Assembly: GCA_949283075.1 (NCBI GenBank)
Contig: CASDRH010000025.1
Location: 1 to 44,537 of the forward strand
Origin: an uncultured Pseudomonadota bacterium
GTDB lineage: Bacteria; Pseudomonadota; Alphaproteobacteria; Rs-D84; CASDRH01
Direction of reading: 5' to 3'
Length of the DNA stretch: 44,537 nucleotides
Shown here: positions 21,740 through 25,954 of the stretch, piece by piece
Layout of the letters: each line of letters starts with the position of its first letter
How positions within the stretch are numbered: the first letter of the stretch is position 1
Notes under the pieces: model-generated
What the model was told of the DNA's origin: nothing
Seen by the model: only the letters and a program-made list of their open reading frames with translations
Databases searched by the model: none
Translations under genes and position numbers: made by a program

Positions 21740-23896
21740 ATGAAATTACCATTTATTGATTTTATAAAAGCTGGTCTTTCAAAACCATTTAGTGATGCTG
21801 TATATGGTGACAGAAACAAAGGAATTTTGTATCTGTTTATTGGTTATGCTCTATTAATAACAATGACATTTTTTGTAGCAATATTTTCAATCCCATTAGC
21901 ATATATACACCAGCAACATTTTGCTTTATCTTCATTAACATCAGAGCCGATGTTGAATTATTTTCAACAATTATATTACAGTTTTGGATTATATGTATTC
22001 ATAGCATATTATGACTGGATAATAGCATTATTTACAAAATCTGATATATCTTGGATACCATTTGCTCCATTACTATTTTATAAAATAACATATTTATATT
22101 TTGACAGCTCTCAACCATACGATTTATTTCCAATATTCATGTCTCGTGGAGAGCAAGCAAAAGAACACCATATAAAAAAGATGGGATTATTTGATGGCTT
22201 CATAATAGTTTTAGGAAAATTCAAAACAGAAAGCGGAGAAAAAAAATTATTAAAACTAAAAGAAACTTTATCAGTATTAGCTTGTGCTCCACCTGGTACT
22301 GGTAAAACAGTTGGTATAGTTGTTCCGACAATATTTGAATGCGATAACGTCAGTATGATTGTAAACGATCCAAAACCAGAGCTATGTTATAAAACAAGCG
22401 GTTATAGAGCAACAAAAGGTCCTGTATTCATAATCAACTGGGGAGCATCAGATGAACCAGATAAAGGAATATACTATCCAAGATGGAATCCATTATCACC
22501 TGATTTGATTCCTCCAATGGGACCAGAAAGAGATATGTATATTGATACAATATCAAACGTTCTGATTCAAGACGCAAAAGGTTCATCATCAGACCCACAC
22601 TGGAGCAGTGCTGGACGAAATGCTTTAACAGGAATGTTGCATTTTATGGCATCTAAATGTGAAAAAGCTGCTGCAAACGATTATTTTTACTATAAGTTAA
22701 GAAAAAACACTTTCACAAAAGAAGATGCGGAATTACTTGCAGGATATTATATGGTAATGGACGACCCATACGCAAAAGGAGCATTAAGATTATTGCAAAT
22801 GGGCCAATTAAATATAAATAATTTTGTTCCAGTTGGAACTTGGGAAAATATACCAGATAATTGGAAAGGAAAAGAGGCTTCAATTCCAATGATACTTGAC
22901 TGGTTAACAGAAGCGCAAATAAATGCAGCAGAAGCAGTAAACAAAAGAAAACAACAAGGCGATCAAATGGCTGCGTTTAATACAGATATTGTTCACGATG
23001 TTATGGAAAATTCAGTTAAAGAAGCTCGTAAATATTCATATGCTCACAGATGTATTTTGGAATTAAACCAGCTTGCAAATACTCCTGAAAAAGAAAGAGG
23101 TTCTATTTTATCAAATGTGTTAACAAATACATCAATATTCAAAAACTCTGCTGTTCGAGAAAGAACTTGTGCATCAGATATATCATTCAAAGATTTACGA
23201 GGTATGCTGGACCCAACAGACGGAAAAATGAAACCAGTAACAGTTTATTTATCAGTCAATCAATCAGACGCAAAAGCATTAAGTGTTATAAGTGGAGTAT
23301 TTATTGAGTTAATGAGTAAATACTTAATTGCAAATCCTCCGGAATTTGAGGGACGTTCAGGAAAAAATGGGCCATTCCCAGTATTATTTGTGTTAGACGA
23401 GTTCCCACAAATGCCAAAGTTAGAAGCTGTTATAGACGGACCAGCAGTTGGTAGAGGACAAAAAGTATCATATCTTTTAATCGGGCAGGACTTAGGGCAG
23501 ATAGAAGCAGGATATGGAAAAGATGCGGTAGAAATTTTAATGTCAACAACAGCAGCAAAAATCATATTAACACAAAACAACGATAAAACAGCTGAAAGAT
23601 TTGCTAATATGATATCAAAGAAAACAGCAATGGATTATGCAGTAAAATCAGACAGTCCAGATAAAGTATTCGCGTTTGACGTAAAGAAAAGCATAAAAAG
23701 CGATGATATTTTCAGTAAAAATAGTATTTTGAATCTATCAGCAGAAAAGCAAATAGTTTTAGTTCAGGGCTTTTATAAATTTCCGATTGAAGCGGAATCT
23801 CCAAGATATTTTAAAGATCCAAAAATGTTAAAAAAGTCAGAAATACCGCCATCACCTGCAGTTCCAGAATGGATAAGATTAAAAACAGGTTATTAA
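21740..23896 (+). CDS. VirD4/TraG-family type IV coupling ATPase
   Basis: A 718-residue protein. The N-terminus has two or three transmembrane segments (about residues 24-50, 75-100, 104-120). The ATPase part has Walker A APPGTGKTVG near residue 184, NDPKPELCYKTSGYRA, WNPLSP, and Walker B LFVLDEFPQMPKLE near residue 550, followed by GQDLGQIEAGYG and QNNDKTAERFANMIS. These are the hallmarks of T4SS coupling proteins, which feed DNA or protein substrates to the secretion channel. No VirB channel gene or relaxase is in the window, so it may serve a scattered T4SS or act alone with the membrane protein encoded just upstream. Confidence 0.88.
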   Translation: MKLPFIDFIKAGLSKPFSDAVYGDRNKGILYLFIGYALLITMTFFVAIFSIPLAYIHQQHFALSSLTSEPMLNYFQQLYYSFGLYVFIAYYDWIIALFTKSDISWIPFAPLLFYKITYLYFDSSQPYDLFPIFMSRGEQAKEHHIKKMGLFDGFIIVLGKFKTESGEKKLLKLKETLSVLACAPPGTGKTVGIVVPTIFECDNVSMIVNDPKPELCYKTSGYRATKGPVFIINWGASDEPDKGIYYPRWNPLSPDLIPPMGPERDMYIDTISNVLIQDAKGSSSDPHWSSAGRNALTGMLHFMASKCEKAAANDYFYYKLRKNTFTKEDAELLAGYYMVMDDPYAKGALRLLQMGQLNINNFVPVGTWENIPDNWKGKEASIPMILDWLTEAQINAAEAVNKRKQQGDQMAAFNTDIVHDVMENSVKEARKYSYAHRCILELNQLANTPEKERGSILSNVLTNTSIFKNSAVRERTCASDISFKDLRGMLDPTDGKMKPVTVYLSVNQSDAKALSVISGVFIELMSKYLIANPPEFEGRSGKNGPFPVLFVLDEFPQMPKLEAVIDGPAVGRGQKVSYLLIGQDLGQIEAGYGKDAVEILMSTTAAKIILTQNNDKTAERFANMISKKTAMDYAVKSDSPDKVFAFDVKKSIKSDDIFSKNSILNLSAEKQIVLVQGFYKFPIEAESPRYFKDPKMLKKSEIPPSPAVPEWIRLKTGY

Positions 23897-23972: not shown

Positions 23973-24767
23973 ATGAGTGAAAAAATAAATATAGGTCTTG
24001 TTGGCCAAGGTAAAGTATTCTTAATTGCTGGTGGTGGAAAATGCTATACAGATATAGCAGCAAGATTTACATCATCAGAAAGAAATGCAGAAGAAATAAT
24101 AAGTAGTGATTATAATCCAAATATTGTAAAAGCAATATTAGATTCTGGACATTTGGCTGCAACAGAATTTGATATGTTTATTTTTGGTATTGAAGGATAC
24201 GCTCGGGTTACAGAAGTTCAACTTGTAAGAAAGCGTCTTGCATCATATTTAATAAAATCAGGACGAAATGAAAAAGGCGGAAAAAGAAGCTATGATATAG
24301 TAATGCCACCAAAAGTAATGAATTGCAAAGAACTTGTCATAAAAGATAAAAACGGAAATGATATGACATTAACAGATTATCTTGAGTACGGAAAAGCTTT
24401 TTATGATAAAGGGCTTGAGCTAGGCTTAAAAGAAGAAGAATTAAGATATTTCAAACCACAAGCAACAGAATTCAAAGCAATCATAGCAATGAATGCTCAT
24501 TCATTATTAGATTGGTTTAAAATCAGAACTTGCTTATGTGCTCAAACAGAAATTAGAGATTTAGCAAATAAAATGATGAAATTGTGTAAAAAAGCAAATC
24601 CTGATTTATTCCAATATGCTGGTCCAAGCTGTGTAGCATTAGGTTATTGTCCAGAAAACAGCAGAATGCACGAAGCTTGCAAAAAAGCAGGTAAATACAA
24701 AACAAAAGATGAAGCATTAAAAATTTTAGGTGTTCCAACAAATACAGATTTACCGGAAGCATCATAA
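23973..24767 (+). CDS. thyX: Flavin-dependent thymidylate synthase ThyX
   Basis: A 264-residue protein of the ThyX family, which methylates dUMP using methylene-tetrahydrofolate and reduced FAD. The signature RHRx7S appears as R86-K-R88-x7-S96, with the His replaced by Lys. The C-terminal RTCLCAQTEIRDLANKMM segment and FQYAGPSCVALGYCPEN fit ThyX homologues with a Cys-bearing C-terminus. AGGAGG precedes the ATG. No thyA is in the window. Confidence 0.85.
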   Translation: MSEKINIGLVGQGKVFLIAGGGKCYTDIAARFTSSERNAEEIISSDYNPNIVKAILDSGHLAATEFDMFIFGIEGYARVTEVQLVRKRLASYLIKSGRNEKGGKRSYDIVMPPKVMNCKELVIKDKNGNDMTLTDYLEYGKAFYDKGLELGLKEEELRYFKPQATEFKAIIAMNAHSLLDWFKIRTCLCAQTEIRDLANKMMKLCKKANPDLFQYAGPSCVALGYCPENSRMHEACKKAGKYKTKDEALKILGVPTNTDLPEAS

Positions 24768-24791
24768 TCATAAAATAAAATTTTCAAAAAG

Positions 24792-24821
24792 CTCTATTAT
24801 TTCACGATAATAGAGTTTTTT
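24792..24821 (+). terminator. Intrinsic terminator after thyX
   Basis: CTCTATTAT (24792-24800) pairs with ATAATAGAG (24807-24815) around a 6-nt loop, followed by seven Ts. Confidence 0.85.
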
Positions 24822-24831
24822 AATATTTATA

Positions 24832-24859
24832 TTGACAAAATAAAAATTACGTTTAAAGT
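24832..24859 (+). promoter_or_regulatory. Promoter of the lytic transglycosylase gene
   Basis: TTGACA (24832-24837), a 16-nt spacer, and TAAAGT (24854-24859). The leader is about 26 nt and carries AAGGAG before the ATG. Confidence 0.55.
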
Positions 24860-24891
24860 ATATGTCATAAAATTTATTGTAAGGAGTTATT

Positions 24892-25566
24892 ATGACAAAA
24901 TATATCATAATACTTTTATGTGTTTTTACTTTTAATTTGTCTACAATTACCAGTACAACTGGTAAAATTTTTAAAAATACAAATAATCTAAATATAGAAA
25001 AATATGAAGCTAATTTAAAAGCAGAGGAAGATTTTATAAAAAAAATAATCCCTAAAAAATATTTCAATGCTTTTATATTAATTACAGAAAGTATGGATTT
25101 AAAAGATAAAAGACTATTGATACTTGGTTTGATGTCTCATGAAACCATGGGCTTCCGCAAATTTATTGCTTATAACCATAATTCAATAGACTACGGTATT
25201 ATGATGCTTAATTCTCATAATATCAAAAGAAAGGCTTTTAGGGATAATTTCTTCCCTGATGAACGCTTTTGGGCAGAATTAGGGATAGAAAAAGATGAAG
25301 ACATTCAGTATATGTATGCTGGAATAAAGTTATTAAAGCATCATATAGAGGAATATGGGGACCTAAAAAAGGCATTAATGGTTTATAACGGAGGCCCAAA
25401 AGTATTCAGAAAAGCAGATGCTGATTTAAAAGAAAAAACATCGGCATATGCTGAAAAAGTGCTTTATAATTTAGATCTGTTAAAAACAGATTTGTTAGAT
25501 TATAAAGCAAGAAGTGGATTAATTCCTGTATATAATGGATATACCATTTCTGCAGAAAATAATTAA
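24892..25566 (+). CDS. Small exported lytic transglycosylase-like protein (SLT fold)
   Basis: A 224-residue protein with a signal peptide. The lysozyme-like core shows the catalytic Glu84 in LMSHETMGF, then SIDYGIMMLNSHN (family GxMQLxP/NS region), MYAGIKLLKHHIEEYGDLKKAL, VYNGGP, and the AYAEKVL motif typical of SLT C-termini. These enzymes cleave the MurNAc-GlcNAc bond with 1,6-anhydro product formation. VirB1-like versions open the wall for T4SS; proximity to the coupling ATPase makes that possible, but the gene has its own promoter and terminator, so a link is unproven. Confidence 0.75.
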   Translation: MTKYIIILLCVFTFNLSTITSTTGKIFKNTNNLNIEKYEANLKAEEDFIKKIIPKKYFNAFILITESMDLKDKRLLILGLMSHETMGFRKFIAYNHNSIDYGIMMLNSHNIKRKAFRDNFFPDERFWAELGIEKDEDIQYMYAGIKLLKHHIEEYGDLKKALMVYNGGPKVFRKADADLKEKTSAYAEKVLYNLDLLKTDLLDYKARSGLIPVYNGYTISAENN

Positions 25567-25572
25567 AAAAAT

Positions 25573-25606
25573 ACACCTATACATTTATTTTGTATAGGTG
25601 TTTTTA
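25573..25606. terminator. Bidirectional intrinsic terminator
   Basis: ACACCTATACA (25573-25583) pairs perfectly with TGTATAGGTGT (25591-25601) around a 7-nt loop. An A-run lies upstream and a T-run downstream, so it can serve both the lytic transglycosylase gene and the convergent small gene at 25617-25793. Confidence 0.88.
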
Positions 25607-25616
25607 ATATTAATAA

Positions 25617-25793
25617 CTAAAATCCTCTATAACTTTTATTGTTCCATTGTATACCATCAGGTGCTGTTCTTGTATGAGGAGCAACATAAGTTCCATTACT
25701 TTTTGTATATCCTCTAACATTAACATATTGAGCCATAGTATTAGTCATAAATATAAAATTTAAAAATAAAGATAATATAATCAGTTTTTTCAT
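25617..25793 (-). CDS. 58-residue exported protein with a GTYV..H.RT.PDG motif
   Basis: A 58-codon gene: signal peptide MKKLIILSLFLNFIFM.. cleaved near TMA-Q, then a mature part of about 37 residues with GYTKSNGTYVAPHTRTAPDG and WNNKSYRG. The pattern G-Y-x-x-S-x-G-T-Y-V-x-x-H-x-R-T-x-P-D is one I recall from small exported proteins widespread in Proteobacteria, of unknown function. AAGGAG (25801-25806) lies 7 nt before the ATG. The gene has its own promoter and a 126-nt structured leader, strong for such a small protein. Confidence 0.85.
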   Translation of the reverse strand: MKKLIILSLFLNFIFMTNTMAQYVNVRGYTKSNGTYVAPHTRTAPDGIQWNNKSYRGF

Positions 25794-25919
25794 ATTTATT
25801 CTCCTTATTAGATTAACAGAATCCCGAAAGAATTAACTAACGGGGCTTTCTGCTAATCCAACAAAGTCGTAAAAGAATCGTATGGGAAAGCCCCATAGAC
25901 TACAACTTTGTGAATTAGC
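25794..25919 (-). ncRNA. Highly structured 5' leader RNA with predicted pseudoknot (candidate riboswitch-like element)
   Basis: Read on the minus strand, the RNA begins with a long hairpin. GCTAAT (25919-25914) pairs with ATTAGC (25857-25852). TTGTA-type bases at 25911-25901 pair over 11 bp with 25871-25861 (one G-U). An inner TATGGG-GCTTT-CCCATA hairpin caps it (25897-25881). The capping sequence GGGGCTTTC (25894-25886) is fully complementary to GAAAGCCCC (25850-25842) lying just 3' of the long hairpin, giving a pseudoknot that competes with the inner hairpin. The predicted transcription start falls at the base of the stem. I cannot match it to a known class. Confidence 0.6.
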
Positions 25920-25925
25920 AACTAA

Positions 25926-25954
25926 AATATATTTTTAATTAATAAAGTTGTCAA
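25926..25954 (-). promoter_or_regulatory. Promoter of the structured leader and 58-residue protein gene
   Basis: On the minus strand: TTGACA (25954-25949), a 17-nt spacer, TATATT (25931-25926). The start is expected near 25919. Its -35 overlaps the -35 of the opposing rpmI promoter. Confidence 0.7.

Follow-up and report, generated by a model that had tools for sequence, protein, structure and literature searches.

A pseudoknotted leader RNA that recurs upstream of three small envelope-protein genes in one reduced-genome bacterium, a candidate RNA switch

Why would the gene for an exported protein of only 58 amino acids carry a leader of about 127 nt that folds into a long hairpin and a pseudoknot, and does this leader regulate the gene? 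The locus lies in a stretch of 44,537 nucleotides, which was analysed as a whole and is called the window here. A first-pass annotation had taken the leader for an ordered regulatory RNA outside all known classes. Our data speak for this view, because the leader has no Rfam match, its base pairs covary among three copies, and the distance from promoter to stem is fixed. The structured leader RNA is real and new and has a narrow distribution, and it is probably a new RNA switch that co-regulates at least three genes.

The transcription unit and the fold of its leader

As read from the sequence, positions 25954-25573 on the minus strand form a complete small transcription unit, with promoter, leader, Shine-Dalgarno (SD) sequence, open reading frame and terminator. 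Its features, in the order of transcription, are these:

25926..25954, minus strand: promoter, with -35 TTGACA (25954-25949), 17-nt spacer and -10 TATATT (25931-25926)
25912..25920, minus strand: P1 5' strand TGCTAATTC, pairing with 25859-25851, at the inferred 5' end of the RNA
25901..25911, minus strand: P2 5' strand ACAAAGTTGTA, 11 of 11 pairs, in the other copies paired with different sequence
25881..25897, minus strand: P3 cap hairpin TATGGG-GCTTT-CCCATA, alternative to the pseudoknot
25886..25894, minus strand: pseudoknot 5' strand GGGGCTTTC, full complement of GAAAGCCCC
25871..25885, minus strand: loop CCATACGATTCTTTT, in which all three copies keep CCATA unchanged and, for the most part, ATTyTTT
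25861..25871, minus strand: P2 3' strand TACGACTTTGT, with an invariant ACG at its top
25851..25859, minus strand: P1 3' strand GGATTAGCA, common to P1 and the anti-P1 helix
25842..25850, minus strand: pseudoknot 3' strand GAAAGCCCC, 9 bp with GGGGCTTTC
25811..25821, minus strand: anti-P1 element TTCTGTTAATC, 11 bp with GATTAGCAGAA (25858-25848), equalled in 0 of 2000 shuffles
25801..25806, minus strand: SD sequence AAGGAG, 35 nt past the pseudoknot
25617..25793, minus strand: gene for the 58-aa exported protein, GYTKSNGTYVxPH family, PHROG 29674
25573..25601, minus strand: intrinsic terminator (called), whose hairpin closes the monocistronic unit

The TTGACA-17-TATATT promoter of the first-pass annotation is present at 25954-25926, and the AAGGAG that it had placed about 40 nt downstream was located at 25806-25801. 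The leader of this first copy occupies minus-strand positions 25920-25842 and then runs on to the ATG at 25793. Its hairpin had been described as 6 plus 11 bp; the 11-bp P2 and the cap are as described, and the whole is slightly longer, since P1 (TGCTAATTC/GGATTAGCA) has 9 pairs and is separated from P2 by one bulged T. The 9-bp complement of the cap that had been noticed 3' of the hairpin is also there, since every base of GGGGCTTTC (25894-25886) has its complement in GAAAGCCCC (25850-25842).

Shuffled versions of the copy 1 leader have a mean folding energy of -23.3 kcal/mol, and the leader itself reaches -44.6 (z -6.6); the 80-nt core has a z of -6.7, with no shuffle equally stable. A pseudoknot match of 9 bp has, by length alone, a chance of about 1% (59 of 5000 shuffles, copy 1); the pseudoknot stands above chance because it recurs in two further copies, in one of them with a compensatory change. 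The loop CCATACGATTCTTTT is a candidate receptor loop and at the same time a poor U-tract downstream of P3. Together with the CGATTCTTTT that follows it, the cap hairpin TATGGGGCTTTCCCATA (window 25897-25881) has a terminator-like score, and it lies inside the leader. When P3 was considered as an attenuator, it was terminator-like in copies 1 and 3, with a U-rich stretch that is interrupted and set off from the stem, and copy 2 gave no call.

Three copies in one genome

When the leader DNA was searched against the host genome (0.93 Mb in 41 contigs), two further copies came to light, both found independently by sequence. Copy 2 matches at C23:19946-20001 (E 4e-10; element C23:19920-20002) and copy 3 at C38:22006-22068 (E 7e-4; element C38:21978-22065), and a reading of the two regions gave the same architecture as in copy 1. 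Two weaker matches in the same genome (L019 and L021) were rejected, as they resemble ordinary coding sequence and have no stems. A separate -35/-10 pair, spaced by 17 nt, precedes every copy, and the promoter ends exactly 5 nt before TGCTA in all three; transcription should therefore start at the base of P1, which reads TGCTA(A/G)TTY plus complement across the copies.

P2, by comparison, is paired at 11/11, 10/10 and 11/11 positions in copies 1, 2 and 3, with few bases in common. All three copies share the GGGCTTTCCCATA loop, the ATTyTTT stretch, the ACG atop the P2 3' strand and the tail GAAAGCCC(C/A), so that conservation covers P1, both pseudoknot strands, CCATA and ACG and leaves out the sequence of P2. 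In an alignment of three sequences from a single genome, padded by hand with the structure in view (A4), standard pairs fill 97.7% of the pair cells, and eight pairs change on both sides, compared with a shuffled mean of 3.0 (0 of 500 shuffles reach eight); seven of these changes fall in P1/P2 and one, G-C to U-A, in the pseudoknot. Sliding the partner by 1-3 columns as a control lowers pairing to 42-54%. The covarying base pairs that the first-pass annotation had proposed to look for are present among the copies of this one genome. Near-invariant pseudoknot strands and a largely invariant loop next to a variable P2 are a pattern that an unselected recent duplication would not give. As in riboswitches, we are dealing with a structured 5' UTR leader that has a conserved and covarying fold, here in three copies.

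The spacing on the gene side matters for the idea that the copies are a family of trans-acting small RNAs, with 3' ends that run into small genes and a GGGGCUUUC loop that targets other messages. Strong individual promoters and a stable fold would suit such RNAs, and the terminator-like cap hairpin might let short forms arise. However, 48, 52 and 48 nt separate the end of the pseudoknot from an ATG with SD sequence in copies 1, 2 and 3, the interval between pseudoknot and gene has no clear terminator, and in two of the three units a called terminator follows the coding sequence; we regard small RNAs as highly improbable. A cis-regulatory leader is the best reading, because location, spacing and structure are common to the copies, and on balance we lean towards a two-state cis-regulatory RNA with which at least three monocistronic messages begin, each for a small envelope protein.

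Downstream of the copies lie three mutually unrelated genes, which encode a 58-aa exported, a 112-aa membrane and a 127-aa exported protein. The first matches PHROG 29674, a family without assigned function. Four helices are predicted, with low confidence, for the 112-aa protein of copy 2, and a single-sequence model of the 127-aa protein of copy 3 (L005 2615-2998) shows a beta meander (pLDDT 71), for which the PDB offers nothing beyond weak lipocalin-like matches (E 0.01 or worse, TM at most 0.5). Neither of these two has convincing relatives in the order, and the folds predicted for the orphans are uninformative. Viral contigs of IMG/VR (L097, L098 and L099) carry genes for relatives of the 58-aa protein (GYTKSNGTYVxPHxRSxPD), none of them with the leader; the RNA therefore belongs to the lineage and does not travel with the gene family. 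The first-pass annotation had tied the RNA to genes for GTYV..H.RT.PD proteins, a link that turned out not to be specific, as the leader is absent from relatives of the gene elsewhere, and copies 2 and 3 stand in front of unrelated genes.

Such a set of targets, unrelated small envelope genes of which two are orphans, looks like a regulon, and sequence conservation is concentrated in the pseudoknot and the adjoining loop. Both would be expected if a regulatory protein bound the conserved pseudoknot and co-regulated the three messages at the level of translation or decay. No candidate protein emerged, however, and none of the three target proteins matches an RNA-binding family, so that we consider a protein-bound leader of this kind quite unlikely.

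A competing helix and a two-state model

Cap hairpin and pseudoknot had correctly been recognized as mutually exclusive, but a stronger candidate for the switch, the anti-P1 element, had been missed. Its target GATTAGCAGAA comprises the P1 3' strand and the first bases of the pseudoknot tail. In copy 3, the anti-P1 strand TTCTGTGTTAGT pairs over 12 bp with ACTAGCACAGAA (0 of 2000 shuffles reach the score); its counterpart in copy 2, TGTTAA, is weak (156 of 2000 shuffles). In copy 3, CA is inserted between P1 and tail, and the anti-P1 strand has a UG to match; one position is changed jointly in three strands, A to G in P1, U to C in its partner and A to G in anti-P1. Recurrence, structure, covariation, fixed spacing to promoter and gene, and anti-P1 in copies 1 and 3 are all computed results.

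We suggest a model with two states. In state A, P1 and P2 would stack into a long stem that begins at the first nucleotide, and the apical loop would pair over 9 bp with the tail, leaving the conserved CCAUA..AUUYUUU loop as the likely receptor site. Geometry speaks against such a fold, since 0-2 nt separate P1 from the pseudoknot tail and a stem of some 20 bp would have to double back on itself. In state B, anti-P1 would capture the P1 3' strand and the start of the tail; P1 and pseudoknot would be lost, the P3 cap hairpin would form, and the first 10 nt or so would become single-stranded. A putative ligand (small molecule, ion or protein) would select state A. Interconversion of the states, its trigger, the output and the sign of the output are what we infer.

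State energies, computed without pseudoknot penalties, are close in copy 1 (-44.2 for A, before pseudoknot penalty, versus -44.6 for B) and favour the anti-P1 state B in copy 3. Copy 2 clearly disfavours state B (-18.3, against -23.7 for its best fold) and tends to the pseudoknot state. As a candidate expression platform, the mutually exclusive helix is strong in copies 1 and 3 and weak in copy 2, and masking of the SD sequence is inconsistent. SD accessibility in copy 1 is 0.30 in state A and 0.82 in state B when the leader alone is folded, and adding 30 coding nt to the fold abolishes the effect; the change between states is inconsistent in copies 2 and 3 as well. SD masking was rejected as a general mechanism on account of this inconsistency across copies, and the temperature switch that the first-pass annotation had offered as one option is unsupported for the same reason. 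An RNA thermometer of the ROSE or fourU type was likewise rejected, since SD accessibility, from folding at 37 C only, varies among the copies and there is no common anti-SD element. We also rejected a leader peptide: AUG GGG CUU UCC CAU occurs in copies 1 and 3, copy 2 has AUU and a shifted frame, and no SD sequence precedes it.

What does differ between the states in all three copies is the 5' end, which is paired from nucleotide 1 or 2 in state A and single-stranded for about 10 nt in state B. The likeliest output would be control of how long the mRNA lives, depending on whether its 5' end is buried or free, and translation might be affected in some copies. We propose control of mRNA lifetime because pairing of the 5' end is an established protection of bacterial mRNAs (PMC3997798), and because the SAM-II pseudoknot riboswitch of the alphaproteobacterium Sinorhizobium stabilises its mRNA in the bound form (PMC9373788).

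Could the leader be a constitutive 5' stabiliser, in which stem and pseudoknot protect short mRNAs from 5'-end-dependent decay without any sensing, and anti-P1 is a processing hairpin or incidental? All three copies begin their stem with the inferred first nucleotide, and anti-P1 of copy 2 is not significant, as one would expect. However, the conserved CCATA loop, the invariant ACG and the 9-bp pseudoknot would then be needless, and the CA insertion with its UG counterpart and the joint change in three strands speak for the maintenance of an alternative helix. We therefore judge mere stabilisation unlikely. A switching leader, in contrast, would be a candidate orphan class that works like a riboswitch or a protein-sensing leader. 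A more specific version is possible, if doubtful: an orphan riboswitch class of one reduced-genome lineage, in which a pseudoknot aptamer for a lineage-specific signal switches a fast-evolving regulon of small envelope proteins by exposing or hiding mRNA 5' ends.

Distribution and closest known systems

Rfam 15, which includes SAM-II, preQ1 and pistol, gave no match at gathering score or at a lax threshold, in agreement with the earlier statement that no known class fits; sub-threshold matches were chance only, mostly to eukaryotic families. A covariance model (R1) retrieved only the three known copies among 201 genomes of the order, with none in the 200 others, and found no match in a class sample of 385 genomes, a phylum sample of 399 genomes or, with laxer filters, 28 relatives. 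A weak match in the order (G073, E 0.008) was rejected, with several P1/P2 pairs broken and no GGGCTTTC/GAAAGCCC pseudoknot strands. A pattern search of genome contigs from about 85,000 species returned five matches, roughly the chance number, none of which fits the model. Pattern searches of viral contigs yielded nothing convincing, phage and plasmid records no match, and text searches of the literature did not find the loop sequence. The genus consists of the source genome alone, and the family adds one genome (G001), which has no match. Judging by the few sampled sister species, the leader RNA appears to be narrowly distributed.

In the window, thyX and a gene for an SLT lytic transglycosylase (23973-25566) lie, together with the leader unit, between virD4 and rpmI, which are adjacent in G001, the nearest relative (L101), about 200 nt apart; the block was therefore gained in the window genome or lost in G001, and looks lineage-specific from this comparison. 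The virD4 gene (window 21740-23896) encodes a VirD4/TraG-type coupling protein of type IV secretion, in a genome of 0.93 Mb. Three copies scattered over one genome, one of them in such a block, and their absence from relatives might also suggest an element that acts as DNA and not as RNA, either a dispersed mobile repeat or inverted-repeat repressor operators. However, each copy builds its P2 from another sequence, the orientation and the distances to promoter and ATG are fixed, and the copies share no flanks, leaving this explanation with a near-negligible probability.

Known riboswitch classes were mostly found through broad conservation. With three copies in one species and no match found elsewhere, an RNA of this kind would be evidence that switches can originate and expand within a narrow lineage, and it would mark a hidden regulon of secreted or membrane proteins in a reduced-genome bacterium. 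Its three naturally diverged copies make the fold directly testable.

Among known systems, the closest is SAM-II (RF00521), an H-type pseudoknot of Alphaproteobacteria that controls translation and mRNA stability at a distance (PMC9373788). In both, the loop of a 5'-leader hairpin pairs with a 3' tail; the leader differs in that it has no Rfam match, a stem about 20 bp long, targets without relation to methionine and the extra anti-P1 element. The preQ1-type and other H-type pseudoknot riboswitches (orphan-riboswitch review, PMC7266159) share with it a short hairpin plus tail pseudoknot, conserved loops and a position upstream of genes, whereas the leader matches no family and was found only in one species. 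The ompA-type 5'-terminal stabilising stem-loop, as cited in PMC3997798, likewise places its stem at the first transcribed nucleotides; to the stem-loop cited there, the leader adds a pseudoknot, a conserved loop and a competing anti-P1 strand.
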